Source of the DNA: Pigmentiphaga kullae
GTDB lineage: Bacteria; Pseudomonadota; Gammaproteobacteria; Burkholderiales; Burkholderiaceae_B
Length of the DNA stretch: 64,000 bases
Assembly (NCBI RefSeq): GCF_004216695.1
Contig: NZ_SGXC01000003.1
Location: 930,001 to 994,000 of the forward strand
Direction: 5' to 3'
The notes under the pieces: model-generated
Seen by the model: the letters and a program-made list of their open reading frames with translations, nothing else
Told to the model about the DNA's origin: nothing
Databases searched by the model: none
Program-made: the position numbers and the translations under genes
Part shown: piece after piece, positions 8,805 through 47,750 of the stretch
Layout of the letters: each line of letters starts with the position of its first letter
Numbering within the stretch: the first letter of the stretch is position 1

Positions 8805-8884
8805 CCCCAGGGCACAGCGGATCCGGCTTTGCCGGTCCGCCAGTGCCGCCCCCCTGGGGGGGCGCGCGTAGCGCGTAGGGGGGG
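8805..8884 (-). repeat. Structured intergenic repeat, copy A
   Basis: Read on the minus strand, directly after the fdxA stop: a C-rich start, CTACGCGCTACGCGCG stem-loop, a CCCCCC-A-GGGGGG stem, then a long hairpin with arms CACTGGCGGA and TCCGCTGTG around CCGGC-AAA-GCCGG. It lies between fdxA and fpr. It is one of eight copies in the window with compensating base changes. Confidence 0.85.
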
Positions 8885-9208
8885 TTACTTTTCCAGCAGA
8901 TCCAGCTTGCCTTCCTTGTCCTTCCACTCGTCGGCGTCGGGCAGGGGCGGCTTGGTGCGGGTGATGCTGGGCCAGCTTTGCGACAGGTCGGCGTTGATCT
9001 GGATGAAATGCATCTGGTTGGCGGGGACGTCTTCCTCGGCCAGGATGGCATTGGCCGGGCATTCGGGGATACAGACGGCGCAGTCGATGCACTCGTCAGG
9101 GTCGATCACCAGGAAATTCGGGCCTTCGCGAAAGCAGTCGACCGGGCAGACATCCACGCAATCGGTGTATTTGCACTTGATGCAGTTCTCGGTGACGACG
9201 TGAGTCAT
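8885..9208 (-). CDS. fdxA: 7Fe ferredoxin FdxA
   Basis: 107 residues. The N-terminal half carries the [3Fe-4S]/[4Fe-4S] pattern of the Azotobacter FdI type: [18 protein letters not shown] then [16 protein letters not shown]. The long C-terminal extension (about 55 residues, ending [10 protein letters not shown]) is typical of proteobacterial FdxA. It is a low-potential cytoplasmic electron carrier. ATG follows GGAG by 6 nt. The reductase gene fpr follows on the same strand beyond repeat copy A. Confidence 0.95.
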
Positions 9209-9397
9209 AGGCGGCTCCAGGACGATGCTGGATAAAAGTTCAGGTCAGCCTGTGATTTTACCGGACTCGCGCGGTTCGGCTGTCCATTCCCCTTGAAGGG
9301 CCATGGGAGTGGGCGGTAGGGCGGTCCTGGGCGGGGGCAAGTCCTCTCTTGTGCTATTTTCTTCGGTTACACAACAGGCATCCCTGGAGACCGTACG

Positions 9398-10249
9398 ATG
9401 CGATCCACCCTGAACGTCCTGCGCAAGAAGCTTGCCGCGGGGCGGAAGATTTCCATGCTGACGTGCTACGACGCCGGTTTCGCCAAGGTCATGGAGGATG
9501 CGCAGGTCGATTGCATTCTGGTGGGCGATACGCTGGGCATGCTCGTGCAGGGCAGGGATTCGACGCTGCCCGTGCTGTTGCAGGACATCGCCTACCACGT
9601 CTCCTGCGTGGCGCGCGGCACCCGCCGCCCCTTCCTGTTGGCCGACATGCCCTTCGGCACTTACCAGGAAAGTCCCCAGCAGGCCCTGCGCAACGCCGTG
9701 ACGCTGATGCAGGCGGGCGCGCAGATGGTCAAGATCGAGGGCGGGGCCGAGCTGGCGCCCACCATCGAACTGCTGACCCGCAGCGGCATTCCCGTCTGCG
9801 GCCACATCGGTCTGCTGCCGTCCCACGTGCATGCGCTGGGCGGCTATCGCGTGCAGGGCAAGGAAGACGCCGAGGCGCGCCGCATCGTGGCCGATGCCCG
9901 CGCGGTCGAGGCGGCCGGCGCCGCCATGATGGTGATCGAGGCCGTTCCCGATCCCGTCGCCCGCCAGGTGTGCGAAGCGGTGCAACTGATCACCATCGGC
10001 ATCGGCGCCTCGGTGGCGTGCTCGGGCCAGGTGCTGGTCCTGCACGACATGCTGGGCCTGACGGCCACGCCCGCCAAGTTCGTCAAGAACTACATGGTCG
10101 GGGCGCCCGCCGGCGGCGATGCGGTCCTGCAGGCCTTCCGGCGCTATGCCCAGGAAGTCGAGACCGGCGCCTTCCCCGGCGTGGAGCACGTCTACGGCAT
10201 GGCCGCCGGCAACATCGGCACCCCCTACGGCAACCAGAGCGGTTCGTAG
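9398..10249 (+). CDS. panB: 3-methyl-2-oxobutanoate hydroxymethyltransferase
   Basis: 283 residues, a (beta/alpha)8 enzyme. Visible motifs: [27 protein letters not shown] (Mg-binding Asp), ADMPFGTY, and KIEGGAE with the substrate-contacting Glu. It transfers a hydroxymethyl group from methylene-THF to alpha-ketoisovalerate to give ketopantoate for pantothenate and CoA. GGAG stands 8 nt before the ATG. Only 2 nt separate it from pncB, so two cofactor genes (CoA and NAD) appear co-transcribed. No panC or panD is adjacent. Confidence 0.96.
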
Positions 10250-10251
10250 CC

Positions 10252-11451
10252 ATGATCATCACGTCTTTGCTGGATACCGACCTCTACAAGTTCACGATGA
10301 TGCAGGTCGTCCTGCATCAGTTCCCGGCGGCGCAGGTCGAGTACAAGTACAAGTGCCGGACCCCGGGGATAGACTTGCATCCCTATGTGGACGAGATCCG
10401 CGAAGAAATCGATGCGCTGTGCGAATTGCGCTTCACCCAGGAGGAACTGGACTACCTCGGCGGCCTGCGCTTCATCAAGAGCGACTTCGTCGACTTCCTG
10501 CGGCTGTTCCATCTGCCCAGGCGCTGCATCTCGGTGTCCAAGTCGCAGTCCCCCGGAGAACTCGACATCACGGTGCAGGGGCCCTGGCTCCACACCATCC
10601 TGTTCGAGATCCCCGTGCTGGCCATCGTCAACGAGGTCTATTTCCGCAACAACCACCTGGTGCCGGCCTATGCCGAGGGCCGCCAGCGTTTGATGAGCAA
10701 GGTGGAACTGGTGCGCGGCGATCCCGCCCTGCGCGACTTCCACATCGCCGACTATGGCACCCGCCGCCGTTTCTCCAAGGCCTGGCACGAGGAAGTCATC
10801 ATCACGCTGAAAGACCAGATGCGGGAGAACTTCTCGGGCACCAGCAACGTGTACTTCGCGATGAAGCACGGGCTGACGCCGCTGGGCACCATGGCGCACG
10901 AATACCTGCAGGCCTGCCAGGGCCTGGGGCCGCGCCTGCGCGACTCGCAGATCTATGGCTTCGAGGTCTGGGCGCGCGAATACCGCGGCGACCTGGGCAT
11001 CGCGCTGTCCGACGTCTACGGCATGAGCGCCTTCCTGCGCGACTTCGATATGTATTTCTGCAAGCTGTTCGACGGCGCGCGGCACGATTCGGGCGATCCC
11101 TTCACCTGGGGCGAGCGCCTGCTGGAGCACTACAAGCAGAACCGGGTGGACCCGCGCACCAAGATACTGGTGTTCTCGGACGGCCTGACCTTTCCGCTGG
11201 CGATCAGCCTGGCCAAGCATTTCGCGGGGCGCTGTATCACCGCCTTCGGCATCGGCACCAACCTGACCAACGACCTGAGCTACCAGCCCTTGCAGGTGGT
11301 CATGAAGATGGTCAAGTGCAACGGCCAGCCGGTGGCCAAGGTGTCCGACACGCCCGAGAAGACCATGTGCGAGGACAAGGCCTACCTGGCGTATTTGCGG
11401 CAGGTGTTCGAGATCCCGCCCGAGCAGGTGGGCGAGACCGCCGACGACTGA
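10252..11451 (+). CDS. pncB: Nicotinate phosphoribosyltransferase
   Basis: 399 residues, full length. Typical elements: [14 protein letters not shown] at the N-terminus, FGTRRR-type segment ([15 protein letters not shown]) with the phosphorylated-His region, [11 protein letters not shown] and [10 protein letters not shown]. It condenses nicotinate and PRPP, driven by ATP hydrolysis, to nicotinate mononucleotide in NAD salvage. The ATG lies 2 nt after the panB stop. It is convergent with the liv genes, with 4 nt between stop codons. Confidence 0.95.
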
Positions 11452-11455
11452 GGGC

Positions 11456-12166
11456 CTAGACCCCCAGGTAGCGGCTGAGCGCCTCGGGCCGGTGGGCGAG
11501 ATCCCCGGCCTGGCCTTCCAGCACCATGCGGCCTTTCTCCATCACGACCAGCCGGTCGGAATTGGCCATGACCATCCGGTAGTTGCGGTCCACCACCAGG
11601 GTGGCCAGGCCGCTGCGCCGGATGTCGCCGATCACCCGCCAGATCTCCGCCACGATCAGCGGCGCCAGGCCTTCGGTGGCTTCATCCAGGATGACGGCGC
11701 TGGGGTTGGTCATCAGCGCGCGGCCGATGGACAGCATCTGCTGTTCGCCGCCCGAGAGCTGCCAGCCCAGGTTGCCCATGCGTTCGGTCAGCCGGGGAAA
11801 GGTGGCCAGCACGCGTTCCAGTGTCCAGTCGGACTGGCCGTCGATGCCGCGCCGCGCCGCCATCACCAGGTTTTCCTTCACGGTCAGGTTGGGGAAGATG
11901 CCCCGGCCCTCGGGCACGTAGGCGATGCCGGCCTTGGCGGCTTCGTAGGGTTTGCCGCGCGACAGGTCGCGCCCGCCTATCGAGATGCGTCCGTCGCGTT
12001 GTCTGACGTGGCCCAGCAGGGTGCGGATCAGGGTGGATTTCCCCATGCCGTTGCGTCCCAGCAGTCCGACGGTTTCCCCGCGTCCCAGGCGGAAATCCAC
12101 CCCGTGCAGGATATGGCTGCTGCCGTACCAGGCGTGCACCTGGCTGGCGTCGATGAGCGCTTCCAT
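11456..12166 (-). CDS. livF: Branched-chain/aromatic-acid-type ABC transporter ATPase (LivF)
   Basis: 236 residues. Walker A GRNGMGKST, signature LSGGEQQ, Walker B VILDEATEGLAP: the short LivF-type ATPase. It pairs with LivG to power import through LivH/LivM at the inner membrane. AAGGAAG precedes the ATG. It is the last gene of the leftward operon that begins with the benzoate genes, so the most likely cargo is benzoate or a related aromatic acid rather than leucine. Confidence 0.92.
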   Translation of the reverse strand: MEALIDASQVHAWYGSSHILHGVDFRLGRGETVGLLGRNGMGKSTLIRTLLGHVRQRDGRISIGGRDLSRGKPYEAAKAGIAYVPEGRGIFPNLTVKENLVMAARRGIDGQSDWTLERVLATFPRLTERMGNLGWQLSGGEQQMLSIGRALMTNPSAVILDEATEGLAPLIVAEIWRVIGDIRRSGLATLVVDRNYRMVMANSDRLVVMEKGRMVLEGQAGDLAHRPEALSRYLGV

Positions 12167-12194
12167 CTATCTTCCTTTTCTCCGGGCGCCGGGG

Positions 12195-12941
12195 TCAGTG
12201 GGCCGAGCCCAGGTAGGCTTCCTGGACGTCCGGGTTGTTGCGCACGTCGGCCGGCAGGCCGCTGGCGATGGGACTGCCGTTGACCATCACGGTGATGTCG
12301 TCCGCCACCGCGAACACCGCGTCCATGTCGTGTTCGACCAGCAGGATGGCATGGCCCTGCCGCAGCCGGCGCAGCAGTTCCAGCATGCGTTCGGATTCCT
12401 CCGCGCCCATGCCGGCCAGCGGTTCGTCCAGCAGCAGCACGGTGGGCGAGGTCGCCAGGCACATCGCCACTTCCAGCTGGCGCTTCTGGCCGTGCGACAG
12501 GCTGGCGGCGGTCATGTCCGCCACCGCGGTCAGGCCCGCCCGTTCCATGACTTCGTCGGCGCGTTCGCCGCTGGCGCGGCAACCCTGGGCGGATTGCCAG
12601 AACTGCCAGGGGCGCTGTGTGCGCGCCTGCGCGGCCAGCCGGCAGTTCTCGCGCACCGTCAGCGGCAGGAAGATGGTGTTGCGCTGGTAGCTGCGGCCTA
12701 TGCCGGCCTGCGCGCGGCGGGGCTGCGACCAGCCGGTGATGTCGCGGCCATGCAGGCGGACGTGGCCGGCCGTGGGCGGCAGTTCGCCGGACAGCAGGTG
12801 GATGAGGGTCGACTTGCCCGCGCCGTTGGTGCCGATCACGGCATGGATGCGGTCGGGGGCGAGCGACAGCGAAACGTTGTCGATGGCCCTGAGCGCGCCG
12901 AAGTGGCGGCTCAGGCCCTGGGCTTGGAGCACTGCCGTCAT
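12195..12941 (-). CDS. livG: Liv-type ABC transporter ATPase (LivG)
   Basis: 248 residues. Walker A GTNGAGKST, signature LSHGQKRQ, Walker B VLLLDEPLAGM, and a C-terminal DVQEAYLG tail, all typical of LivG. The ATG at 12941 overlaps the livM stop (ATGA), so translation is coupled. It forms the ATPase heterodimer with LivF, 28 nt downstream. Confidence 0.93.
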   Translation of the reverse strand: MTAVLQAQGLSRHFGALRAIDNVSLSLAPDRIHAVIGTNGAGKSTLIHLLSGELPPTAGHVRLHGRDITGWSQPRRAQAGIGRSYQRNTIFLPLTVRENCRLAAQARTQRPWQFWQSAQGCRASGERADEVMERAGLTAVADMTAASLSHGQKRQLEVAMCLATSPTVLLLDEPLAGMGAEESERMLELLRRLRQGHAILLVEHDMDAVFAVADDITVMVNGSPIASGLPADVRNNPDVQEAYLGSAH

Positions 12942-13984: not shown

Positions 13985-14005
13985 TCCACGTTCCAATAGG
14001 GGGAA

Positions 14006-14875
14006 TCAAGTGCCCTGTTTGAAGAGGCCTTCGGGCTTCCACAGCAGGATGGCGGCCATCAGCACGTAGATCAGCGCGCCGGCGGCCTGTTGCCAGAACA
14101 CCTTGCCGAAGGTGTCGACGAAGCCGATCAGCAGCGAGGCGACCAGCGCGCCCTTGATCGAGCCGATGCCGCCGATGACCACCACCACGAAACAGATGAT
14201 CAGCACCGATCCGCCCATGCCCGGATACACCGAGGACACCGGCGCCGCGATCATGCCGGCCAGCACCGCGATGGCCACGCCCACGGCGAAGACGATGCGA
14301 TACAGCAGCGAGATGTTGATGCCCAGCGACTGCACCATCTCGCGGTTGGTCGCCCCGGCGCGCACCATCATGCCGAGCCGGGTCTTCTTGAGCGCGACGT
14401 ACATCGCCACGGCCAGCAGCACGCACACGCCCGAGATGAACAGCCGGTAGACCGGATAGGTCATGTCGTTGCCGATGGCGATGCCGCCTTCCAGCCAGGC
14501 CGGCACCGGCACCCCATGGACGTCGTCGCCCACCAGGATGCTGCGCATTTCCTCGAACACCAGGATCAGCCCGTAGGTCATCAATACCTGCTGCAGGTGT
14601 TCCCGTTCATACAGGAAACTGAAGAAACACCACTCCAGCACATACCCGAACGCCACCGCCAGCACCACGCCCAGTACCAGCGCCAGCACGAAATTGCCGG
14701 TCAGCGACGACAGCGAGAACGCCATGTAGGCGCCGATCATGTAGAAACTGCCATGCGCCAGGTTGATCACGCCCATGATCCCGAAGATCAGCGTCAGCCC
14801 GCTGGCGATCAGGAACAGCAGCAACCCATACTGCACGCTGTTCAGGCACTGAATAAGAAACGTCGTCAAATCCAT
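14006..14875 (-). CDS. livH: Liv-type ABC transporter permease (LivH)
   Basis: 289 residues, strongly hydrophobic with about eight membrane segments. FGIMGVINLAHGSFYMIGAY is the LivH N-terminal signature, and GATNREMVQSLGIN the coupling-helix region. The start is ATG 14875 (MDLTTFLIQCLNSVQYG). The gene is separated from the binding-protein gene by 267 nt holding two copies of the structured repeat in inverted orientation. Confidence 0.93.
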   Translation of the reverse strand: MDLTTFLIQCLNSVQYGLLLFLIASGLTLIFGIMGVINLAHGSFYMIGAYMAFSLSSLTGNFVLALVLGVVLAVAFGYVLEWCFFSFLYEREHLQQVLMTYGLILVFEEMRSILVGDDVHGVPVPAWLEGGIAIGNDMTYPVYRLFISGVCVLLAVAMYVALKKTRLGMMVRAGATNREMVQSLGINISLLYRIVFAVGVAIAVLAGMIAAPVSSVYPGMGGSVLIICFVVVVIGGIGSIKGALVASLLIGFVDTFGKVFWQQAAGALIYVLMAAILLWKPEGLFKQGT

Positions 14876-14892
14876 CCCACACTCCGTATAGA

Positions 14893-14976
14893 ACCCACCC
14901 CCTACGCCCTTCGGGCGCCCCCTCAAGGGGGCGAAACTGGCGGACTGGCAAAGCCAGATCCGCGGTTTCCTGGGTC
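14893..14976 (+). repeat. Structured intergenic repeat, copy B1
   Basis: Plus-strand orientation. Stem 1 is CGCCC-TTC-GGGCG, stem 2 CCCCCTCAAGGGGG, and stem 3 has outer arms AAACTGGCGGA/TCCGCGGTTT around CTGGC-AAA-GCCAG. Both stems 1 and 3 show compensated changes relative to copy A. This is the only copy not placed after a same-strand stop codon; it faces copy B2. Confidence 0.8.
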
Positions 14977-15061
14977 TAGCAAAAGTATCTTGGTTGCTGT
15001 GCTGATGCTACCGCTGGCAGCCAGCGAAGCACCAGCGCCACAACCCAAGACAGCGGTACTA

Positions 15062-15142
15062 GACCCAGGATGCGGTGGATCCGGCTTTGCCGGTCCACCC
15101 GCATCGCCCCCTGGGGGGCGCGCGTCAGCGCGTAGGGGGGGG
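15062..15142 (-). repeat. Structured intergenic repeat, copy B2
   Basis: Minus-strand orientation, touching the stop codon of the binding-protein gene. The outer arms of stem 3 are GATGCGGGTGGA and TCCACCGCATC, a compensated change from the CACTGGCGGA form. TGGGTCTAG (14971-14979) in copy B1 and CTAGACCCA (15059-15067) here make the two copies an inverted pair around a 79-nt spacer. Confidence 0.8.
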
Positions 15143-16324
15143 CTACATCCTGCAGCCCCGGGCGGGATCGGCCAGTGCCTTCACCGCCACGCTCACTAGT
15201 TGGTTGGTCTTGTTCTCGACCTTGCGCAGGTAGATGTCCTGAATCGGGTTGTGGGCCTTGGACATCGTGAACGGGCCGCGCGGGCTGTCGATCTTGGCCT
15301 GTTCCATGCCCTTGACGACGGCGTCGCGCTTGCTGATGTCGCCGCCCGCGGCCTTCAGGCCGGCAGCCAGCAGCTGGGCGGCGTCATAGCCCTGTACGGC
15401 ATAGACGTCGGGCTGCAGCTTGTAGGTCTTGGCGTAGTCGGCGCGGAAGGCCTTGTCCTTGGGCAGGGTCAGGCCGTCGGCGTAGTGCAGCGTGGTCAGC
15501 AGGCCGTCGGCCGCGGCGCCCTGCGCCTCCAGCGTGCCGTCGGTCAGGAAGCCGGCGCCGTACAGCGGAATCTTGTCTTTCAAGCCCGCCGCCGCGTAGT
15601 CCTTGACGAACTTGACCGCGCCGCCGCCCGCGAAGAACACATAGACCGCGTCCGGCTTGAGTGCGGCGATCTCGGTCAGCAGCGCCTGGAACTCGACGTT
15701 GGGGAAGGGCAGGTTCAATTGCTTGACGACCTTGCCGCCCTTGGATTCGAAGCCTTCCTTGAAGCCGTTGGTGGACTCGTCGCCCGCCGCGTACTTCCAG
15801 CTCAGGGTGACGGCGGTCTTGTGCTTGAGCTGGGTGGCGGCGACCAGCCCCATGGCGTAGGCCGGCTGCCAGTTGCTGAACGACGAGCGGAAGATGTTGG
15901 GCGCGCACAGCGGCCCCGTGACGTCGTCGGCGCCGGCATTGGGGATGATGAGCAGCGTCTTGTTGTCCTTGGCGACCTTGGCCATGGCCATCGCGACGCC
16001 GGAATGTACGGTGCCCACCAGCACGTCGACCTGGTCGCGCTTGACCAGCTTGTTGGCGTTGTCCGAGCCCTTGGCCGGGTCGGATTCGTCGTCCACCTTG
16101 AAGTACTCGATCTCGCGTCCGGCCAGCTTGCCGCCCTGTTCCTGCACGTACAGCCGGAAGCCGTTCTCGATGGCGGTGCCCAGGGCCGAGTAGGTCCCGG
16201 TGTAGGGCAGCATCAGGCCGACCTTGACCTTGGCGGGAGCCTGGGCGCCGGCGGGCACCGTCAGGCACGACGCGGCCATCAAGGCAGCGGCGAGGACGGT
16301 GAATTTGCGTTTGGAAGCGTTCAT
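15143..16324 (-). CDS. ABC transporter substrate-binding protein (LivK-like, likely aromatic acid)
   Basis: 393 residues: Sec signal (MNASKRKFTVLAAALMAASC to about residue 28) and a type I periplasmic binding fold (KVGLMLPYTGTYSALG, VDVLVGTVHSGVAMAMAKV, YAVQGYDAAQLLAAGLKAAGG). The Cys in the signal (AASCLTV) could be read as a lipobox but lacks the usual -3 Leu. It delivers substrate to LivHMGF. Its position after benzoate-CoA ligase and boxD suggests benzoate or a similar aromatic carboxylate. The start is ATG 16324. Confidence 0.88.
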   Translation of the reverse strand: MNASKRKFTVLAAALMAASCLTVPAGAQAPAKVKVGLMLPYTGTYSALGTAIENGFRLYVQEQGGKLAGREIEYFKVDDESDPAKGSDNANKLVKRDQVDVLVGTVHSGVAMAMAKVAKDNKTLLIIPNAGADDVTGPLCAPNIFRSSFSNWQPAYAMGLVAATQLKHKTAVTLSWKYAAGDESTNGFKEGFESKGGKVVKQLNLPFPNVEFQALLTEIAALKPDAVYVFFAGGGAVKFVKDYAAAGLKDKIPLYGAGFLTDGTLEAQGAAADGLLTTLHYADGLTLPKDKAFRADYAKTYKLQPDVYAVQGYDAAQLLAAGLKAAGGDISKRDAVVKGMEQAKIDSPRGPFTMSKAHNPIQDIYLRKVENKTNQLVSVAVKALADPARGCRM

Positions 16325-21172: not shown

Positions 21173-22102
21173 ATGAAAGAAGAGGCGGTTTCCGAAGCGG
21201 GGCAGGCCGCGGCCAACGACGCGCCGGCCAAGGAACCTTTTCTGGTGACGCTGGGGGAACGAATACGGACGTTGCGGGCCCGCCGGGGCTTGACCCGCAA
21301 GGCCACGGCCTCGGCCGCCGGAATTTCGGAGCGGCATCTTGCCAACCTGGAGCTGGGGACGGGCAATGCCTCCATCCTGATCCTGCTGCAGGTTTCCCAG
21401 GCGCTGCAGTGCTCGCTGGCCGAGATCCTGGGCGACGTCACCACCACCAGTCCGGAATGGCTGCTGATCCGCGAGCTGCTCGAAGGGCGGTCCGAGGCCG
21501 ATCTGCATCGCGCCCGCAATACGTTGACGGAAATGTTCGGCTCGCGCGAGAACAATCATTCCCGCCTGTCCCGCATCGCCCTGGTCGGGCTGCGGGGGGC
21601 GGGCAAGTCCACGCTGGGCCGGATGCTGGCCGATGACCTGGGCTATACCTTCATCGAACTGAGTCGGGAAATCGAAAAGGTGGCCGGCTGCAGCATCGTC
21701 GAGATCCATTCCCTGTACGGCGCCAACGCTTACCGCCGCTACGAGCGGCGGGCGCTGGAGGAAACGGTGCAGATCCATCCCGAGGTCGTCATCGCCACGC
21801 CGGGCGGCCTGGTGTCGGACGTCTCGACCTTCAACCTGCTGTTGTCGCATTGCTATACGGTCTGGCTGCAGGCCGACCCCGAAGATCACATGCGCCGGGT
21901 CGTGGCCCAGGGCGACTTCCGCCCCATGTCGGGCAGCCGCGAGGCCATGGACGATCTCAAGCGCATCCTGGCTGGCCGGGCCGCGTTCTATGCCAAGGCC
22001 GACGCCCGCTACAACACCAGCGGGCATTCGCTGGAAGAGGCGTTCGCCGGCCTGCGTTCGCTGGTGCGCAACGCGGCCGGGATGGTGGACTGGAGTATGT
22101 AG
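21173..22102 (+). CDS. boxR: BoxR/BzdR-family regulator: XRE-type HTH fused to shikimate-kinase-like domain
   Basis: 309 residues. HTH domain (about 27-82: LGERIRTLRARRGLTRKATA, ISERHLANLELGTGNASI), linker, then a shikimate-kinase-like domain from 133 with Walker A GLRGAGKS (139-146) and RYERRALEETV. In BzdR and BoxR the kinase-like domain senses benzoyl-CoA, the HTH represses box genes, and the effector releases DNA. The gene is divergent from the leftward operon and faces the boxC promoter. GAGG stands 4 nt before the ATG. Confidence 0.94.
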   Translation: MKEEAVSEAGQAAANDAPAKEPFLVTLGERIRTLRARRGLTRKATASAAGISERHLANLELGTGNASILILLQVSQALQCSLAEILGDVTTTSPEWLLIRELLEGRSEADLHRARNTLTEMFGSRENNHSRLSRIALVGLRGAGKSTLGRMLADDLGYTFIELSREIEKVAGCSIVEIHSLYGANAYRRYERRALEETVQIHPEVVIATPGGLVSDVSTFNLLLSHCYTVWLQADPEDHMRRVVAQGDFRPMSGSREAMDDLKRILAGRAAFYAKADARYNTSGHSLEEAFAGLRSLVRNAAGMVDWSM

Positions 22103-22103
22103 G

Positions 22104-22266
22104 AGGGCCCCCCTACGCGCTGACGCGCGCCCGGCGTGGTGAGCCCCCAGCCGCTACGCGGCAGCCCCCCGAGGGGGCCGGGGCCCGCCTTGGGGCGGCC
22201 CGGCGCCGGGCCCCGTAGGGGCGAAACCGGCGGACCGGCGGAGCCGGATCCGCGGTTTCCTGGGGC
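22104..22266 (+). repeat. Structured intergenic repeat, copy C (expanded)
   Basis: Follows the boxR stop within 2 nt, plus orientation. It starts with the CTACGCGCTGACGCGCG stem-loop and ends with stem 3, outer arms AAACCGGCGGA/TCCGCGGTTT around CCGGC-GGA-GCCGG. Between them are roughly 90 extra G/C-rich bases including another inverted repeat (GGGGCCCG ... CGGGCCCC), so this copy is about twice the usual length. Confidence 0.75.
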
Positions 22267-34651: not shown

Positions 34652-34732
34652 CCCCCAGGGCACAGCGGATCCGGCTTTGCCGGTCCGCCAGTGCCGCCCC
34701 CTTGAGGGGGCGCGCGAAGCGCGTAGGGGGGG
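34652..34732 (-). repeat. Structured intergenic repeat, copy D
   Basis: Minus orientation, 7 nt after the receptor stop codon. Stem 1 GCGC-TTC-GCGC, stem 2 CCCCCTCAAGGGGG and stem 3 with arms CACTGGCGGA/TCCGCTGTG around CCGGC-AAA-GCCGG. It differs from copy A mainly in the loops of stems 1 and 2. Confidence 0.85.
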
Positions 34733-34739: not shown

Positions 34740-36992
34740 TCAATACTTCAGATTGAGGTTCAGGATCGCGGCGCGGCCGGCGCCGACCGACGCGTAGTGC
34801 GTCGAGTAGGTCGTGGTGAAGTAGCGCTTGTCGGTCAGGTTCATCAGGTTCAACTGCAGGCTGACGTTGCGGTTGATCCGATAGGCCGCCATCGCGTCGA
34901 AGCGGGTGTAGCCGGGGATGTAACGGCGCACCGCCGCGTTCGAACCGTACTGCTTGCTGGAGATGAACACGCCGCCGCCGATCGAGAAGTCGCTGTTGAT
35001 GGCATACGTGGTCCACAGCGTGGCCGTGTGCTTGGGCGTGTTGGGGAACGCCTGGCCGCTGGCGGCCGCGGTGTCACGGCCCAGGTCGCGGACTTCGCTG
35101 TCCAGGAACGTGTAGCCGCCGAACACTTGCCAGGCCTTGGTGATGCTGCCCGAGGCGCCGACTTCGAAGCCGTTGATGCGGCGGTTGCCGGCCATGGCGT
35201 AGGTGCCGTCGGGCTGGGTTACGCGGGCGTTCGTGGTGTCGATACGGAAGATCGCCCCGGACAGCGCCAGGCGGTTGTCCAGCACGTTCCACTTGGTGCC
35301 GACTTCCAGCGAACGGTTCTTTTCCGGAGCCATGTCCTTGGCGTTGACGCCCACGCCGCCACGCCCCGGGACGATGCCCTGGGATTCCGAGCCCTGGCCC
35401 AGGGTGGAGTTCGCAGGCGTCGACGACGTGCCGTACGACACGTAGACGCTGCCGTTCCTGGCCGGCTTGTAGATCAGGCCGAGCTGGTAGTTGAACAGCG
35501 TGTCGCTGCGGCCCACGTCGGCGGTCGGGCTGACCAGGCCGGTCTTGTAGTTGTCCACGCGCGCGCCGAGGTTGGTCAGCCACTTCTCGCTCAGCTTGAT
35601 GGTGTCGAAGCCGTAGACCGAGAAGGTGGTGGCCTTGAAGTGGTTGTTGCGCTCGCCTTCGACCGTCGAGCCGTTCCACGGATCGTTGGGATTGGGGTTG
35701 TAGAGGTCGGTGCAGTTGTAGCCGGACGGCGCGCCGACGCCTGCCGCGCAAGTCGTGGCGCCGGTGCCGCCGGGCAGCGTGCGTGCCACGGTGTACGAAC
35801 CGGTATCCGATTTCTCGCGCGAGATCTCGATGCCGGTGTTGAAGCTGTGCTCGTAGCCGCCCAGGTTGGCCTTGCCGAACAGTTCGGTCTGGTTGGCGAT
35901 GGTGTGCACGCCTCCGGTGCGGGATTTCGCGTTGCGCCAGACGCGGCCGTCGTTCACGTTGCCCTGGCTGTCATCGGGGTTGGTCCACACATAGCGCTGG
36001 TCCACGGACGTGTAGCGCAGCGTATTGCGCACCGTGAGGTTGCTGCTGATGTCGTGCTCGACGCGGGCGGTGGCGACGTCCGAGCGGGTCTTGTAGAAGT
36101 CGCTTTTCAGGCCGTAGAAATTGTCCATGTTGACGGTGACGGGGCGGATCGCCGTCACGCCGGCCGGAACCTTGTTGCCGTACATGAACGGGATGCCGGA
36201 GTCCGGCGTATCGTCGGTCTGGATGTGCGAATAGCTGAGGGTGACGCGGGTGGGCGTATTCAGGCCCCAGGTGAACGAGGGGGCGATACCCCAGCGGGAC
36301 ACGTCCACGCCGTTGCGGCCCGCCACGTCGGCATCGTGCGCCATCGCGTTCAGGCGGAAGGCCATGTTGTCGCCCAGCAGCCAGTTGCCGTCGACCGTGG
36401 CGCGCTTGTAGTTGTCCGTGCCCAGGCCCAGCGTCGCATTGGTGAACTTCTCGGCCTTGGGCGTCTTGGTGATCAGGTTGATGCTGCCGCCCGCGCCGCC
36501 GCGGCCGCCGTAGGCGCCGTCCGGGCCCTTGATGACTTCGATCTGTTCGAGGTTGAAGACTTCACGCGTCACGGCGCCGATATCGCGCATGCCGTCGACG
36601 TACGTGCTCGATTGCGCGTCGTAGCCACGGATGAAAGGCCGGTCGCCCAGCGGGTTGCCGCCTTCGCCGGCCCCGAACGATATGCCGGGTGTCAGGCGCA
36701 GCGCTTCGGTCAGGGTGGTGGACGCCGTGTTCTCGATGATTTCCTGGGGGATGACGGTGACGCTCTTGGGCGTGTCCAGCAGCGGCGCGGTGAATTTCTG
36801 CGAGGCCGATTGGTCGGCCTTGTACGCCGATTCGGCTTCGCCGCGCACCGTGATGGGCGCGAGCTGGCCGCTGGTGCGGGGCGCGTCGGCCGAGGTGGTG
36901 TTCTGCGTCTGGGCCTGGACGGCCGGCACGAACGTGAGCGCGCTGATGGCGGCCGCCAAGGTATTGAATCTGAACTGGTTCGTAGGTGTCAC
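34740..36992 (-). CDS. TonB-dependent siderophore receptor (catecholate Fiu/PiuA-like)
   Basis: 750 residues from GTG 36992, which has GGGGGA 7 nt upstream. Signal peptide to about residue 28 (...VPAVQAQ), a TonB-box-like ITVRG, plug domain (TPKSVTVIPQEIIENTASTT, RPFIRGYDAQSSTYVDGMRD, EVIKGPDGAYGGRGGAGGSI) and a 22-strand barrel ending LNLNLKY with the terminal aromatic. The plug wording fits catecholate or xenosiderophore receptors of the Fiu/PiuA/BfrD type. A strong Fur box lies upstream, and the Sel1 gene follows. Confidence 0.9.
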   Translation of the reverse strand: MTPTNQFRFNTLAAAISALTFVPAVQAQTQNTTSADAPRTSGQLAPITVRGEAESAYKADQSASQKFTAPLLDTPKSVTVIPQEIIENTASTTLTEALRLTPGISFGAGEGGNPLGDRPFIRGYDAQSSTYVDGMRDIGAVTREVFNLEQIEVIKGPDGAYGGRGGAGGSINLITKTPKAEKFTNATLGLGTDNYKRATVDGNWLLGDNMAFRLNAMAHDADVAGRNGVDVSRWGIAPSFTWGLNTPTRVTLSYSHIQTDDTPDSGIPFMYGNKVPAGVTAIRPVTVNMDNFYGLKSDFYKTRSDVATARVEHDISSNLTVRNTLRYTSVDQRYVWTNPDDSQGNVNDGRVWRNAKSRTGGVHTIANQTELFGKANLGGYEHSFNTGIEISREKSDTGSYTVARTLPGGTGATTCAAGVGAPSGYNCTDLYNPNPNDPWNGSTVEGERNNHFKATTFSVYGFDTIKLSEKWLTNLGARVDNYKTGLVSPTADVGRSDTLFNYQLGLIYKPARNGSVYVSYGTSSTPANSTLGQGSESQGIVPGRGGVGVNAKDMAPEKNRSLEVGTKWNVLDNRLALSGAIFRIDTTNARVTQPDGTYAMAGNRRINGFEVGASGSITKAWQVFGGYTFLDSEVRDLGRDTAAASGQAFPNTPKHTATLWTTYAINSDFSIGGGVFISSKQYGSNAAVRRYIPGYTRFDAMAAYRINRNVSLQLNLMNLTDKRYFTTTYSTHYASVGAGRAAILNLNLKY

Positions 36993-40363: not shown

Positions 40364-40440
40364 CCCCCCCTACGCGCTGACGCGCGCCCCCCAGGGGGCG
40401 GCACTGGCGGACCGGCAGAGCCGGATCCGCTGTGCCCTTG
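40364..40440 (+). repeat. Structured intergenic repeat, copy E
   Basis: Plus orientation, 17 nt after the ilvH stop. Stem 1 GCGC-TGAC-GCGC, stem 2 CCCCCCAGGGGG, stem 3 arms CACTGGCGGA/TCCGCTGTG around CCGGC-AGA-GCCGG. It lies between ilvH and ilvC, so it is part of an operon and not only at its end. Confidence 0.85.
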
Positions 40441-41549: not shown

Positions 41550-41551
41550 AA

Positions 41552-41630
41552 CCCCCCCTACGCGCTGACGCGCGCCCCCCAGGGGGCGGCACTGGTGGAC
41601 CGGCGGAGCCGGATCCACTGTGCCCTGGGT
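41552..41630 (+). repeat. Structured intergenic repeat, copy F
   Basis: Plus orientation, 2 nt after the ilvC stop. Stem 3 has arms CACTGGTGGA and TCCACTGTG around CCGGC-GGA-GCCGG, so the GGTGGA/TCCACT pairing replaces GGCGGA/TCCGCT of other copies with pairing kept. A terminator follows at once. Confidence 0.85.
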
Positions 41631-41634
41631 TTGG

Positions 41635-41665
41635 AGCCTCCACGGATGTTCGTGGGGGCTTTTTC
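41635..41665 (+). terminator. Rho-independent terminator of ilvC
   Basis: AGCCTCCACG (41635-41644) pairs with CGTGGGGGCT (41651-41660) around a 6-nt loop, followed by TTTTTCTTTT. It is directly after repeat copy F, so the repeat is transcribed within the ilvC 3' end. Confidence 0.85.
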
Positions 41666-41688
41666 TTTTGGGGCGTTCAGTTTGCCGG

Positions 41689-42597: not shown

Positions 42598-42606
42598 GCC
42601 GGGTCC

Positions 42607-42625
42607 CGGAAATTTAGGTTTTCCG
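42607..42625. promoter_or_regulatory. Inverted repeat in the LysR divergent promoter region
   Basis: CGGAAA (42607-42612) and TTTCCG (42620-42625) are a 6-bp inverted repeat with 7 nt between, in an AT-rich patch otherwise unusual for this DNA. It begins 10 nt from the LysR start and about 80 nt from the divergent gene, a typical place for a LysR autoregulatory site. Confidence 0.35.
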
Positions 42626-42703
42626 AATTTTATTTCCACAAATTTGGCTTGGCAAAATCTGGAGCCGTGGCGACCATGTCCCCCAGGACAAGAAGGAGGT
42701 CGC

Positions 42704-43306: not shown

Positions 43307-44094
43307 CCTGGCCGGCCCGCGTGGTCCGCAGCGGTTCGGGCGCGTCCGTCGTGCTGATCCACGGCGTGGGCCTGGACCTGGGCATGTGGGATGAGCTGGT
43401 CCAGGCGCTGGGCGGCGAGTTCGAGCTGATCCGCTATGACATGCTGGGGCACGGCGACACGCCTTTGCTGGCCGGCGAGATCGATCTGGACCGGTACGTG
43501 GCGCAATTAGGCGAGGTGTTGCGCGCGGAGGGCTTGCGCCGGCCCTGCGTGGTGGGATATTCGATGGGCGGGCTGGTGGCGGGACGTTTCGCCGCCCGCC
43601 ATCCCGGCGACGTGGGGAAGCTGGTGCTGATGAGCACCGTGTTTCGCCGCACCGAGGCCGAGCGCCACGCGGTGCGGACGCGGTTGGCGCAGGCCGAAGG
43701 CGGGGACGCGCTGGCGGGCGCGCAGGCATCCGTCGAACGCTGGTTCTCGCGTGCCTTCATCGAGGCGGAGCCGAATCGTGTCGACGCGATCCGGCGGCGT
43801 CTGCTGGCCAACCGGCGCGAGGATTTCCTGGCGGCGTATCGCATCTTCGCCGGCGTGGATGGCGTTCTGCCCGAGGCGGCGCCGCAGATCCGCTGTCCGG
43901 TCCTGGTATTGACGGGTGACCAGGACACCGGGTCCACGCCCCGCATGGCCGAGGAATTGGCACGGTCCATTCCACATGCCGCGCTGCGGATCGTGCCGGG
44001 ACAGAAGCACATGTTGCCCGTCGAGGGCGTGACGGCTGCCGCGGCGGCGCTCAGGGACTTCCTGGGGCCCGGCGGTACGCGCCGGGCTGCCTGA
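43303..44094 (+). CDS. Alpha/beta hydrolase (3-oxoadipate enol-lactonase-like)
   Basis: 263 residues. Oxyanion VVLIHGVGLDLGMWDELVQ, nucleophile VGYSMGGLVAGRF (Ser), acid in VLTGDQDTGSTP, and His in VPGQKHMLPVE: the PcaD-type layout. The GTG at 43303 overlaps the preceding stop. Together with the DUF1185 and Bug genes it looks like a small catabolic operon; substrate unknown. Confidence 0.88.
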   Translation: MTWPARVVRSGSGASVVLIHGVGLDLGMWDELVQALGGEFELIRYDMLGHGDTPLLAGEIDLDRYVAQLGEVLRAEGLRRPCVVGYSMGGLVAGRFAARHPGDVGKLVLMSTVFRRTEAERHAVRTRLAQAEGGDALAGAQASVERWFSRAFIEAEPNRVDAIRRRLLANRREDFLAAYRIFAGVDGVLPEAAPQIRCPVLVLTGDQDTGSTPRMAEELARSIPHAALRIVPGQKHMLPVEGVTAAAAALRDFLGPGGTRRAA

Positions 44095-44128
44095 GCGGCC
44101 CGCACCATACCAAGCAAGGAGACAAGAC

Positions 44129-45103
44129 ATGCAACGCAGACACATGCTGGGCGCGATGGCCGCGCTGGCGTCCTCGGCCTACCTGGGGAAGGGGCACGCG
44201 CAAGGCGCGGGCGGCAACGTCCCGCTGCACGTGGTGGTGCCGTTCCCGCCCGGAGGCGGCACGGACGTGCTAGGGCGGGCCATCGGCTACCGGCTGGAAA
44301 AACTGCTGGGGCGCCCGGTCGTGGTCGAGAACAAGCCCGGGGCCAGTGGCATCGTCGGCGCCGAGTACGTGGCCAAGTCCGACCGCGACGGCAATACGCT
44401 GCTGTTCTCGGGGCTGGTGCCGTCCGTGCGCTACTACAGCCGCCCACTGTCGCAGATCGGCGCGGAGCTCTCGCCGGTGTGCATGATCGCGCGTTCGCCT
44501 TATCTCGTCGCGGTCAATCCCGGCGTGCCGGCGAAGACGCTGGGCGAGTTCGTGCAGTTGGCCAAGAGCAGGCCCGGCACGCTGACCTTCGGTTCGCCCG
44601 GCAACGCCACGCCGCAGCACCTGGCGACGGAGCGTTTCCGTTCCCAGGCCGGCATCGACATCCTGCACGTGCCGTATCGCGGCACGGGGCCCATGATGAC
44701 CGACCTGCTGGGCGGCCAGATCCAGCTGGTGTTCGCGACGGTGGCGGCGGCCGAGCAGCACGTGAAGTCCGGCCGCCTGCGCGCGCTGGCGGTGACCAGC
44801 GCCGACCGGATGGATCGCCTGCCCGACGTGCCTACCGTGGCCGAGGCGGGTATCCCGGACTTCGTGGCCGAGATCGCCTTCGGCACGTATGTCGCGGCGG
44901 GTACCGCGGCGGCGGCGATAGGCGGCCTGAACCGGGCGATCAACCAAGCGCTGACCGATGCGGAGGTACGCGGCAAACTGATCGAGCAGGGTTTCATTCC
45001 CGTGGGCGGCGCGCCCGCGGACCTTGAAAAAAGCCTGCTGGCCGAGGTCAAGGCTGTGTCCGAGCTCGTGCGGTCGGGCAAGGTGCGCATCGACGCCGCC
45101 TGA
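44129..45103 (+). CDS. Bug/TctC-family periplasmic substrate-binding protein
   Basis: 324 residues with a signal peptide including an Arg-Arg start (MQRRHMLGAMAALASSAYLG), so Tat export is possible. Mature part: VVVPFPPGGGTDVLGRAIGY, ENKPGASGIVGAEYVA, FGSPGNATPQHLA and VPTVAEAGIPDFVAE, all Bug signatures. Such proteins bind carboxylates and are very numerous in Bordetella; TctAB partners are not in the window. Confidence 0.92.
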   Translation: MQRRHMLGAMAALASSAYLGKGHAQGAGGNVPLHVVVPFPPGGGTDVLGRAIGYRLEKLLGRPVVVENKPGASGIVGAEYVAKSDRDGNTLLFSGLVPSVRYYSRPLSQIGAELSPVCMIARSPYLVAVNPGVPAKTLGEFVQLAKSRPGTLTFGSPGNATPQHLATERFRSQAGIDILHVPYRGTGPMMTDLLGGQIQLVFATVAAAEQHVKSGRLRALAVTSADRMDRLPDVPTVAEAGIPDFVAEIAFGTYVAAGTAAAAIGGLNRAINQALTDAEVRGKLIEQGFIPVGGAPADLEKSLLAEVKAVSELVRSGKVRIDAA

Positions 45104-45120
45104 GCTCCGGTCGGGCCGGC

Positions 45121-45159
45121 TACCGTAAGAAATACGGTAGAATGCCGTACAAATTACGG
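45121..45159. promoter_or_regulatory. Tandem CCGTA-N5-TACGG operator at the fusion-regulator start
   Basis: Two identical inverted repeats CCGTA-N5-TACGG occupy 45123-45137 and 45145-45159, with centres 22 bp apart (about two helical turns), so they lie on the same DNA face. The first is extended by TA/TA. The second overlaps the Shine-Dalgarno GGAGG of the downstream gene. This is a classic autoregulation layout for a ribbon-helix-helix dimer pair. Confidence 0.65.
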
Positions 45160-45170
45160 AGGTAGTCGGC

Positions 45171-46385
45171 ATGGCCAAGACCGAACGATTCGAAATGCGC
45201 CTGGACGAGTCGTCCGAGGCCGCCATCGACGCCTGGCGCGACGCGCACATGGCGGGCGCATCGCGGGCGCAGGCGGTCCGGGCGCTGATCGAGCGCGGCC
45301 TGGCGGGCGCGTCTGCCGGCGGTCCCCGTTTCAGCGACGGCGAGAAGACCCTGATGGCCTTCATGGGCGACCTGTTCCGCCACCTGGGTGCGCCGGCGGA
45401 GCGGGTGGATGCCGTATGCCGGGGGTTCGCCACCGGCAACCACTGGGCCGCTGATCTGGAGATGGGCGGGCTGTACAGTCCGGTGTCCTCGTCGGCATCG
45501 CCGGACGATGCCCGTTTCGTACTATCGGTGCTCGAAATGTGGGAAGTGTTCGAGTCCGCATTCGAGGATTTTTCCGAGGCCCAGCGGGCACGGGTGCTGG
45601 GCGGCGAAGGCGCGCAGCGGCGCGGGCGGGGAGCGCGCAGGGCCGCGGAGCTGCGGTTTGCCGGTTTCGACGCGGTCCATGAGCCCGAGTTGCTGCGGAT
45701 CGCGGAATTCCTGGTGCGCGAGATGCGGCGCTTCGGGCGTTTCGCCGGGCGCAGCCTGGTGGCGGCTCAGGGTGGGGCGCGCCGGGATCATGCGGTCCGC
45801 CTGCGTTATTACGAAAGGCTGCTGCCCACGCTGGCGGGGCGTCGGCCGACCCCCGACGAGGTGCGCGAGTTCCTGTGGCTGCGCGCCGAGGCGTCCGGAG
45901 CTGAGCCGGCGACCGGCGGCCGCGGCGTGTCCCATCTCAAGGAGTTTTCGTTCCATCGCTTCGGTCTGCTGGCGCCGCGCGTCAATGCGCTCAGCCGGGT
46001 GCTGACCCGCAGCGCGGTGCAGTTCGCCAAGGCGGAGTACGGGCTTTCGCAGGTCGAATGGCTGGCGGTCACGCTGCTGGGGGCGTTCGAGCCGGTCTCC
46101 ATTGGCGAGCTGGCCTACCACGCGATGCTGGATGCCGGGCAGATGAGCCGGACGGTGTCCGGGTTGGTCGAGCGCGGATTCGTCGAACGCCGGCGCAGCG
46201 AGGAAGACAGCCGAGAGACCGTGCTGACGCTGACCGGGGAAGGCGAGGAGATGCGCCGGCGCCTGGCGGACGCGGCGGCGGCCCGCAATCGGCATGTGGT
46301 CGGGGACTTGCCGGAAAGCGAGCTTGCCGTCGTCTATGCCCGCCTGGATGGCTTCATTGCCCGGGCCCGACAGCTGGTGGACTAG
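45171..46385 (+). CDS. RHH-YfbU-MarR fusion transcription regulator
   Basis: 404 residues in a single frame with three domains: a ribbon-helix-helix-like N-terminus (1-45, ERFEMRLDESSEAAIDAWRD), a YfbU domain (about 54-240: FSDGEKTLMAFMGDLFRHLG, DDARFVLSVLEMWEVFESA, RYYERLLPTLAGRRPTPDEV), and a complete winged-helix MarR domain (about 253-404: GLSQVEWLAVTLLGAFEPVS, AGQMSRTVSGLVERGFVERR). An in-frame GTG at 45927 sits at the MarR boundary and could mark an old or an internal start. It would carry two DNA-binding domains. It follows a Bug gene and precedes an AT-rich gap. Confidence 0.85.
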   Translation: MAKTERFEMRLDESSEAAIDAWRDAHMAGASRAQAVRALIERGLAGASAGGPRFSDGEKTLMAFMGDLFRHLGAPAERVDAVCRGFATGNHWAADLEMGGLYSPVSSSASPDDARFVLSVLEMWEVFESAFEDFSEAQRARVLGGEGAQRRGRGARRAAELRFAGFDAVHEPELLRIAEFLVREMRRFGRFAGRSLVAAQGGARRDHAVRLRYYERLLPTLAGRRPTPDEVREFLWLRAEASGAEPATGGRGVSHLKEFSFHRFGLLAPRVNALSRVLTRSAVQFAKAEYGLSQVEWLAVTLLGAFEPVSIGELAYHAMLDAGQMSRTVSGLVERGFVERRRSEEDSRETVLTLTGEGEEMRRRLADAAAARNRHVVGDLPESELAVVYARLDGFIARARQLVD

Positions 46386-46605
46386 CGGTTCATCCCTTGA
46401 AGTGTGACTTATTCATTTAATTGTGGGGGGGCTTAAGGGTTTGCTGTGTTTCGTAAAGTCCTTGATTTAAAGGGAAATAACGGAATTCATAGGGCTGGCC
46501 GCAGGTGCTGTTAGGGAAAACTCCAGCGCTTTTATGTTTGACTATATCAAATAAAAAATCGCAGAATGCCTCCTGTTGCGTTCCATTCGATCCAGGAGCC
46601 CTGCG
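46386..46605. promoter_or_regulatory. AT-rich intergenic region with TTTGA-N5-TCAAA palindrome
   Basis: 220 nt with clearly lower GC than the surroundings and no gene. Near its end is TTTGA-CTATA-TCAAA (46537-46551), an inverted repeat about 55 nt before the ATG of the binding protein at 46606 and overlapping a possible TTGACT -35. It is the probable promoter/operator of the importer cluster; the regulator is unknown, though the preceding fusion regulator is a candidate. Confidence 0.35.
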
Positions 46606-47655
46606 ATGCCGGCTTTATCCCTTGGTGCTTTTCCTTTATCGATCACCGCCGCGCGAGGAGCGTTGATCCTGGCGCTGTCGGCCGGTGCGTTGCCCGCGCT
46701 CGCCGCCGAAGGCGACGCCTGCGCGGCGGTGGACCTGTCCGTGGCCAAGTCCTCGCCGGTCGCCATCCGCTACGGCACGACCGGCGGCGGCGAGGAGCCG
46801 TTGGCGCTGCTGTGGGCGGACCAGGCCAGTTATCCCGGCAACGGCAAGTTCTACACCATGCAGGTCACGGAGTTCACGTCCACGGACCGCATGACGGCCT
46901 TCCAGGCCGGTCAGATCGACGCCGGCACGATCAGCTTTCCCTCGCTGGTGACGGCGGTGCACGTGGGCATCGACGCGCGGGCGGTCGCCTCGCTGGTCCA
47001 GGTCAACGAGGCCGACAACGAAGGCGCGTTCGCATCGCTGTCCAGCGGCGGCATCCGCGACATCAAGGATTTCAAGGGCAAGAAGGTCGGCTACTACGGG
47101 CCGAATACCATCAGTGAATACTGGGTCAAGAGCGCGCTGCGGCGCGCCGGCATGAAGCCGAATGACGTCTCGTTCGTGTCGCTGCCGCCGCCCGCGCAGG
47201 AGCAGGCCCTGCGCAACGGCCAGATCGACGTGGCCTGGCTGGCCCGCCAGTTCCTGTTCAAGGCGAAGTCCACGGGCGGCGTGGAAACCATCATGACGCC
47301 GTTCCAGGCCACCGGCGGCGCCAGCCAGCCCAGCCTGCTGATCTTCTTCTCGCCCAAGTTCATCAAGGCTCATCCCCAGGCCTATTGCGCATGGCGCAAG
47401 GATTACCAGCAGGCCCTGGCCAACTGGTCGGCCAACCCGGACGCGGCCTATCCGAAGCTGATCGCCGCCAAGTACGTGACGCCGTTTTCGGCCAAGGCCG
47501 GTGCCGACGGCGGACGCAGTCCCGACGGCTCGGTTTCGCTGGCCGAGTTCGACGCCACGATGAAGGACATGGCGACCTCCCGCTTCCTGCCGCCGGCCAT
47601 GGTTCAGCCCGCCGCCAAGTTGGTGATGCCGGGTTATTCATTGATGAAGCAATAG
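46606..47655 (+). CDS. ABC transporter substrate-binding protein (NMT1/SsuA-like)
   Basis: 349 residues, Sec signal (ITAARGALILALSAGALPAL, cleavage after about residue 34 near ALAAEG). The periplasmic binding fold shows TEFTSTDRMTAFQAGQIDAG, DIKDFKGKKVGYYGPNTISE and QEQALRNGQIDVAWLARQFL, as in SsuA/NMT1 proteins. ATG 46606 has CAGGAG 7 nt upstream, preferred to ATG 46576. First gene of the importer cluster (ATPase and two permeases follow). Confidence 0.88.
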   Translation: MPALSLGAFPLSITAARGALILALSAGALPALAAEGDACAAVDLSVAKSSPVAIRYGTTGGGEEPLALLWADQASYPGNGKFYTMQVTEFTSTDRMTAFQAGQIDAGTISFPSLVTAVHVGIDARAVASLVQVNEADNEGAFASLSSGGIRDIKDFKGKKVGYYGPNTISEYWVKSALRRAGMKPNDVSFVSLPPPAQEQALRNGQIDVAWLARQFLFKAKSTGGVETIMTPFQATGGASQPSLLIFFSPKFIKAHPQAYCAWRKDYQQALANWSANPDAAYPKLIAAKYVTPFSAKAGADGGRSPDGSVSLAEFDATMKDMATSRFLPPAMVQPAAKLVMPGYSLMKQ

Positions 47656-47668
47656 GCCCCCAGGTAGA

Positions 47669-47750
47669 CCCACCCCCTACCCGCTGCGCGGGCCCCCTCG
47701 AAGGGGGCGGCACTGGCGGACTGGCAAAGCCAGATCCGCTGTGCCCTGGG
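47669..47750 (+). repeat. Structured intergenic repeat, copy G
   Basis: Plus orientation, 13 nt after the binding-protein stop. Stem 1 CCCGC-TGC-GCGGG, stem 2 CCCCCTCGAAGGGGG, stem 3 arms CACTGGCGGA/TCCGCTGTG around CTGGC-AAA-GCCAG. Stems 1 and 3 carry compensated changes relative to copies A and E. Confidence 0.85.

Follow-up and report, generated by a model that had tools for sequence, protein, structure and literature searches.

What is an ∼80-nt structured element doing eight times over in one stretch of a bacterial chromosome, and why does it nearly always begin at a stop codon? The stretch, called the window here, comprises 64,000 nucleotides of Pigmentiphaga kullae (contig NZ_SGXC01000003.1, positions 930,001 to 994,000), and the copies, lettered A, B1, B2 and C to G along it, had been listed from the letters only (the sequence-only reading). 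All eight were found again at the positions claimed for them. They belong to a dispersed repeat that folds into three hairpins, keeps its pairing through compensatory changes, lies in most cases with its head at a stop codon and in the sense direction of the gene that ends there, and is present or absent at the same site in related genomes. The explanation favoured here, at a probability of about 0.45, is that of a spreading palindromic DNA similar to the repetitive extragenic palindromic (REP) sequences and bacterial interspersed mosaic elements (BIMEs), probably related to the BRE repeats of Bordetella, and kept where it produces mRNA structure next to a stop codon.

A three-hairpin repeat behind stop codons

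The repeat unit is a core of 80-86 nt, with a C-rich head followed by hairpin 1, a hairpin 2 of C and G, and a long hairpin 3 that carries a one-base bulge. The outer arm of hairpin 3 is drawn from a few block types, mainly GATGC, GGCAC, GGCGC and GAAAC. Of 89 copies, 83 had an arm that could be parsed (the other 6 were left out), and in 76 of the 83 its two sides are perfectly complementary; the loop of hairpin 3 reads AAA, GGA, AGA or GAA depending on the copy. Seven of the eight window copies fold more stably than dinucleotide shuffles of themselves (z from -3.3 to -5.5), although for copies E and F 1 of 200 shuffles folded equally well. Copy C, of which only 22104-22251 was folded, did no better than its shuffles (z -0.56).

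Is the pairing itself maintained? An alignment that spans several genera, with 55 distinct sequences, has 95.7% of its cells paired, and 13 of 24 pairs are altered on both sides; the covariation score, 0.256 against a shuffle mean of 0.119, was reached in 0 of 500 shuffles, and was at most 0.084 when the partners were slid. The copies of one contig of the same genome, C3, behave alike when taken alone (97.3% of cells pairing, 13 of 24 two-sided pairs, score 0.243, again reached by 0 of 500 shuffles). Covariation is thus significant within the genome and across genera, in alignments that were both fitted to a covariance model and are biased towards it. On such alignments the three recurring hairpins and the compensatory arm types proposed from the window are seen again. 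The further proposal that structure rather than sequence is conserved is half true: it agrees with the covariation and not with the near-identity of copies within the genus or with arm types that occur as blocks.

The number of copies is large. With copy E as query, BLAST returned at least 48 matches in the genome, 40 of 235 candidates being scored. A covariance model built from 36 copies (R1) and run over bases 1-1,120,000 of contig C3 found 71 matches in these 1.12 Mb at an E-value of 1 or less, 66 of them at 40 bits or more; if C3 is typical, this extrapolates to roughly 370 copies in 6.2 Mb.

These matches show where the element lies, with the caveat that the C3 gene calls were made in this analysis and are approximate. 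When the five matches below 40 bits are dropped, together with the one of the remaining 66 that falls inside a called gene, 65 intergenic copies are left, and in 54 the head-side neighbour is a stop codon in sense. The head is within -22 to +17 nt of such a stop in 38 of the 65; when each copy was placed anywhere in its own intergenic region, in either orientation, 1000 runs gave a mean of 9.7 and a maximum of 18. No tail is that close to an antisense stop (0/65, random mean 9.8). Gene settings are convergent for 28 copies, same-strand for 34 and divergent for 3, and 26 of the 34 same-strand copies read in sense. Eight further copies lie at 77-88 nt, seven of which are long or split variants with a head of their own at the stop, while three copies have the head in the -22 to +17 range of an antisense gene start, where starts may be miscalled.

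The distance from the stop to the first base of hairpin 1, measured in 37 copies, is 9-15 nt in 22, 16-19 nt in 7 and 24-28 nt in 3; in the other 5 the stop codon is inside hairpin 1. Because the length of the head is fixed, the 9-nt minimum is in itself no evidence for a ribosome footprint. The genes whose called stop falls inside hairpin 1, with a frame running through the element head, are those at C3 302956, 456996, 470150, 701774 and 867527; gene 409051 of the same contig is like them and ends one base earlier.

Does the rule extend beyond this genome? The best-scoring loci of 18 other genomes, with two more loci, supplied 68 copies (66 loci and the two were used out of 72; L210, L220, L249 and L253 were excluded as further units of arrays already counted). 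Apart from one copy within a called gene, which was left out, 67 of the 68 are intergenic. A sense stop is the head-side neighbour in 59, and lies within -25 to +30 nt of the head in 52 of the 67 intergenic copies; of 65 tails, 4 come that close to an antisense stop. Stop proximity and sense orientation are therefore far beyond random expectation on C3 and recur in other genera. Eight of ten plasmid matches (H1-H8) were also examined, five with a deposited gene table at the copy and three without. Four of the five follow the stop rule; in the fifth (Methylibium petroleiphilum PM1, L279 1501-1562) the copy is in, and directed against, a transposase coding sequence with an HTH_Tnp_1 domain.

The identity of the stop codon is a separate matter. 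On C3, TAG precedes the element in 17 of 33 cases and ends 224 of 973 other genes (Fisher p 0.0006). A swap of the stop codon as a general mark of insertion was nevertheless rejected, as the other genomes gave 12 TAG, 13 TAA and 27 TGA, with no enrichment of TAG.

Hosts, doublets and spread

Another question is how widely the family is distributed. With the genome of the window counted, R1/R2 matches occur in at least 14 of 61 genomes chosen as relatives, in at least 14 of 399 drawn from the order and, within the family to which the window belongs, in at least 74 of 268 genomes and at least 7 of 43 genera. All of these genome counts are lower bounds, as only part of the candidates in each genome were scored; in G010, a 6.2-Mb genome of the same genus, there was no match among the candidates scored with the model. 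Matches are found on Comamonadaceae plasmids of Variovorax, Diaphorobacter, Acidovorax and one unclassified strain, and on the Methylibium plasmid, and none appeared in the phage collection searched.

Many copies come in pairs. The 16 inverted pairs on C3 are all tail-to-tail, and no head-to-head pair exists among neighbours within 260 nt. Their inner gaps fall into three classes, of 38-41 nt (5 doublets), 83-85 nt (8) and 106-112 nt (3); the 83-85-nt spacer is palindromic, and long spacers can contain a terminator-like hairpin. In all 18 doublets that could be parsed, of 21 from C3 and the related genome G007, the two outer arms are unlike, a GATGC type facing another type, while random pairing of the same arms would give ∼5.8 like pairs; the doublets are related, so that they do not amount to 18 independent trials. 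Since the arms are unlike, what is kept is the local hairpins and not the long palindrome, and pairing of the doublet arms along such a palindrome is ruled out as the kept structure.

Orthologous sites show the element coming and going. Both sites that flank the ketol-acid reductoisomerase gene, occupied in the window by copies E and F, carry the element in 6 of 14 relatives and are empty in 8 of 14. This gene ends in TGA at all 8 of the empty sites; at the 7 filled sites, of which the window supplies one, its stop is always TAG or TAA. In G007, where the mean amino-acid identity is 97% over the compared gene ends, pattern scoring finds 12 of 15 orthologous stops filled, inspection raises this to 14 of 15, and some doublets appear flipped with respect to C3. 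At g946 it is the element tail that stands directly behind a TAG in G007, the C3 site being without the element. A further candidate for a clean empty site, g851, was dropped, as C3 retains a head-like remnant there and a deletion is probable.

Other arrangements add to this picture. A second head type (AAGGGAAGCCCACCCCC) is nested, as judged by eye, within older copies. Genome G015 has gapless tandem arrays of 86-nt units (L098, L109), tandem not being the usual form in the genome of the window, and G268 has tandem 124-nt units (L199, from 1501), each consisting of a piece of the 3' end of the upstream gene plus the element. The combination of nesting, tandem arrays and empty sites suggests a family that spreads, apparently multiplying by more than one route. 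In addition, a short tandem array built from the element tail was seen behind the copy at L111 (G001), after 1583.

By what means would the element move? Inspection by eye of the few empty and filled pairs aligned showed no target duplication. In the genome of the window (G000), PF01797, the Y1 transposase family of the REP-associated tyrosine transposases (RAYTs), had no match at an E-value of 0.001 or less, by which a REP driven by a RAYT is ruled out; PF00078 (reverse transcriptase) had no match either, and this rules out a retro-element.

The copies in the window

Three copies (A, B2 and D) read on the minus strand, the other five on the plus strand. The sequence-only reading held that seven of the eight start right behind a stop codon and read in sense with the gene it ends, B1 being the exception. 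Both statements stand; the spacing is 0-16 nt and not the 1-17 nt given.

Copy A (8805-8884) begins 0 nt past the TAA of a minus-strand gene for a 4Fe-4S/DUF3470 protein (8885-9208). Copy D (34652-34732) is 7 nt past the TGA of a TonB-dependent receptor gene (34740-36959, minus strand).

Between these two lies the explanation for the exception. Copies B1 (14893-14976, GAAAC type) and B2 (15062-15142, GATGC type) are the left and right arms of one tail-to-tail doublet, overlooked before, with a palindromic spacer (14977-15061) of the 83-85-nt class to which 8 of the 16 C3 doublets belong. B2 starts 0 nt past the TAG of a Peripla_BP_6 gene (15143-16324, minus strand), and the doublet separates this periplasmic binding-protein gene from a permease gene. 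Being one arm of this doublet, B1 escapes the stop rule and has no stop codon before it.

Copy C (22104-22266) is a long variant, 1 nt past the TAG of an SKI/HTH_3 protein gene (21173-22102). Between its hairpins 1 and 2 it holds a block of ∼81 nt (22129-22209, plus strand, limits set by eye from the alignment) that is missing from the G007 ortholog and resembles blocks in other long variants. A second ∼80-nt repeat between hairpins 1 and 2 was noted as well in the long variants that follow C3 genes 529071, 603665, 637089, 697521 and 1041414.

Of the remaining copies, the sequence-only reading had placed E and G inside operons and F just before a terminator; the neighbours of E and G are named here from Pfam matches. 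Copy E (40364-40440) is 16 nt past the TAA of the acetolactate synthase small subunit gene and before the ketol-acid reductoisomerase gene. Copy F (41552-41630) follows the latter, 2 nt past its TAG, and directly 3' of it, as claimed, comes an intrinsic-terminator-like hairpin with a T-run (41633-41668, plus strand). Copy G (47669-47750) is 13 nt past the TAG of an NMT1-type binding-protein gene, with an ABC ATPase gene next.

Two other features of the window deserve mention. A bare head-like remnant (TTCCCCCTAT) follows the TGA of the minus-strand gene 14006-14836; G007 has a full element there, so that the remnant below position 14006 is probably the product of a deletion. Near the end of the window, a single open frame of 4486 aa begins at 61593 and runs past its limit.

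Function and kinship

The central question is what such placement is for, if it is for anything. The combination favoured here would run as follows. The element would spread as DNA, singly, in tandem or as a tail-to-tail doublet of unlike arms, and most copies have the head at a stop codon and the sense direction of the gene concerned. Transcribed within the 3' untranslated region (3' UTR), they would place the first hairpin mostly 9-19 nt past the stop, as do the stop-proximal REPs of Escherichia coli. There the element may hinder the terminating ribosome, block 3' exonucleases, or both, and the output of the upstream cistron would be set relative to that of the next; copies would be retained where a stop-proximal mRNA structure forms. 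The parts of this proposal are not equally secure. Identity and position, taken together, are highly probable, while action at the mRNA level, as judged from the analyses reported here, is rather doubtful. A bolder version sees an order-wide class of structured 3'-UTR elements fixed to the stop and portable between the genes of Burkholderiales. Their target would be the mRNA 3' end or the terminating ribosome, and the run of C would serve as a spacer that puts the first hairpin just outside that ribosome; this version is unlikely.

Several results weigh against the favoured combination, and the most serious concern the RNA. Purifying selection on RNA is expected to favour G-U over A-C departures from pairing. 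In the 160 copies kept after 13 partial ones of 173 were dropped, all distinct, stems 1 and 3 show 16 G-U against 25 A-C cells, or 14 against 13 crude events. Stem 2, whose runs of C and G cannot be registered with confidence, was kept out of the main comparison; with it the cells are 38 G-U against 31 A-C, and in stem 2 alone 22 against 6. When the same copies are folded without an alignment, G-U pairs number 156 on the sense strand and 268 on the antisense strand, and the mean energy is -48.9 kcal/mol in sense against -51.1 kcal/mol in antisense, the sense strand being lower in 30 of 160. These tests give no support for sense-RNA constraint on single copies, and the folding test points the other way. 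Because the antisense strand folds more stably in most copies, the odds were lowered for mRNA action, for the combination as a whole and for the stop-fixed class. A function that needs only stable hairpins may still agree with both tests, and RNA function has a serious competitor in maintenance at the DNA level. On the same side of the balance are two loci of other genomes, L252 and L257, with no stop within 30 nt; the fifteenth G007 site (g805), where the element has the opposite direction; and the outer arm type, which differs between G007 and C3 in 6 of 12 comparable pairs (the 6 that share it compare with 3.8 expected by shuffling, P 0.13). The relation to BRE has its own difficulties: it was drawn from description and not from a comparison of letters; the bprJ transcript of B. 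pertussis is antisense to BP3396, the gene whose stop a BRE adjoins (PMC3110155); and at the lexA locus, where BREs are published for three Bordetella, the model run on 3-kb loci found 0 matches in ten genomes, which are not established as Bordetella, and one each in two more.

Could the element then be DNA that spreads for its own sake, selfishly or by conversion? Insertion would prefer stops or 3' ends and would fix the orientation, with no effect on mRNA, and the palindromes would serve copying, as hairpins read by a recombinase or as arms made alike through template switching. Purely selfish DNA that prefers to insert at gene ends is nearly as likely as the favoured combination. It accounts well for empty and filled sites among relatives, for doublets in three spacer classes, for the second head type nested in older copies and the tandem arrays, for departures in stems 1 and 3 that are as often G-U as A-C, for the better folding of the antisense strand, and for the split of the ketol-acid reductoisomerase stop between TGA in empty and TAG or TAA in filled sites. 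It has more difficulty with the lack of visible target duplication at the few sites compared, with the absence of Y1 transposase and reverse transcriptase matches from the genome, and with a direction fixed relative to the gene, for which no insertion mechanism is known.

The claim of a transcribed 3'-UTR function survives as far as position goes and not as regards strand-specific RNA constraint. With a home-made detector, 51 3' ends that bear an element were scanned for a terminator-like site up to 150 nt past it, and 18 had one; of 135 control stops, scanned over 180 nt, 20 did. This makes a transcribed 3'-UTR position plausible.

Two explanations that stay with RNA fare worse. If the copies were themselves ordinary transcription terminators repeated by chance, their location 3' of genes and the hairpin with T-run found in some doublet spacers and tails would be expected; the core has no T-run, however, 33 of the 51 ends lack a terminator-like site within 150 nt past it, and 26 of the 65 C3 copies have a stop before them and a same-strand gene start after, so that this is the least probable explanation considered. 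Only slightly less improbable is a trans-acting or protein-binding regulatory RNA, such as the attenuator or protein target raised by the sequence-only reading. The covarying three-hairpin fold speaks for it, and so does bprJ: this transcript overlaps a BRE, and its expression differs in a B. pertussis mutant of RNase III (PMC8386462); but the loop of hairpin 3 varies, G-U is not preferred in stems 1 and 3, the upstream genes in the window come from different Pfam families, and no Rfam match covers an element in the window or at ten related loci.

What would follow from the answer? If placement means function, many genes in a genome of this sort end in a preformed structure at the stop codon, which could set how much protein is made or how long the mRNA lasts. 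The idea of the stop-proximal REP would then become testable in a further system, remote from E. coli. Should placement reflect insertion instead, it points to a process that recognises gene ends. Either way, a precise placement rule replaces "repeat of unknown function".

How does the element compare with repeats already described? Searches of Rfam reject it as a family of that database: the window had 0 matches at the gathering score, and ten related loci had four at an E-value of 5 or less, none over an element. Near an element, L205 1372-1434 (plus strand) matches RF02278, the Betaproteobacteria toxic small RNA, with 51.1 bits.

The likely relatives are the BREs (Hot et al. 2011, PMC3110155). 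BREs measure ∼75-91 bp in Bordetella, are G+C-rich and usually intergenic, have tandem copies with none or few bases between them, and occur in hosts that include Bordetella, Polaromonas, Delftia, Acidovorax and Rhodoferax, in 1-29 copies per genome at the thresholds of that study. The present element matches this description with its unit of 80-86 nt, the intergenic location of 65 of the 66 copies at 40 bits or more (by called genes), its gapless tandem arrays in G015, and overlapping hosts among Alcaligenaceae and Comamonadaceae (Variovorax, Acidovorax and Diaphorobacter). One published BRE (3605317-3605401, in the intergenic region 3605200-3605405) is, by coordinates, 4 nt from the stop side of BP3396, and from coordinates alone this resembles the stop proximity seen here. 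The differences are the low published counts and the absence of a stop-codon rule and of covariation from the parts of PMC3110155 consulted; literature searches found no paper that states such a rule for this repeat family. To judge by this likeness, the family is probably the published BRE or a close sister, and so probably not new.

The Bordetella stem-loop family Bor-1, of 93 and 117 nt with 128 and 196 members (PMC2267715), may be the same as the element family or related to it. The name Bor was also used in 2006 for a repeat of only 26-30 bp, in a paper that discusses 3'-end clustering of stem-loops (PMC1590033), and this length sets it apart from the ∼80-nt element. The likeness to Bor and Bor-1, as structured intergenic repeats, is one of description and not of consensus letters.

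Miniature inverted-repeat transposable elements (MITEs) and other palindromic mobile elements are dispersed, form palindromic doublets and leave empty sites. The element shares all three traits, and differs in the missing target duplication, judged by eye at few sites, and in the missing partner transposase, for which PF01797 and PF00078 were the only families searched.

The comparison with the REPs of E. coli is the most instructive for function. BIMEs are inverted doublets of unlike REP types. The element is likewise palindromic, extragenic and partly stop-proximal, and its inverted doublets join unlike types; it differs in its three-hairpin unit of 80 nt, against 20-40 bp, in having one end at the stop and the other not, and in a genome without a RAYT-family match. 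REPs carry a GTAG or CGTC tag at the hairpin foot (PMC3733652); heads in the genus of the window have CTAC next to hairpin 1 (read as GTAG on the opposite strand), a feature that Comamonadaceae copies do not keep. In E. coli, translation is lowered by REPs whose distance from a stop codon is below 16 nt (as cited in PMC12306157), and such copies, within 15 nt, are 446 of 4,072 predicted in that paper and 260 of 496 in an earlier study cited there. The distance rule of less than 16 nt holds for the majority of the element copies and not for all, with 22 of 37 at 9-15 nt. Two places in the window recall a case in E. coli, namely the B1/B2 doublet, between the genes of a binding protein and a permease, and copy G, between those of a binding protein and an ABC ATPase. 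The case is that of malE-malF, where a REP protects the mRNA 3' end and raises the binding protein over its partners.

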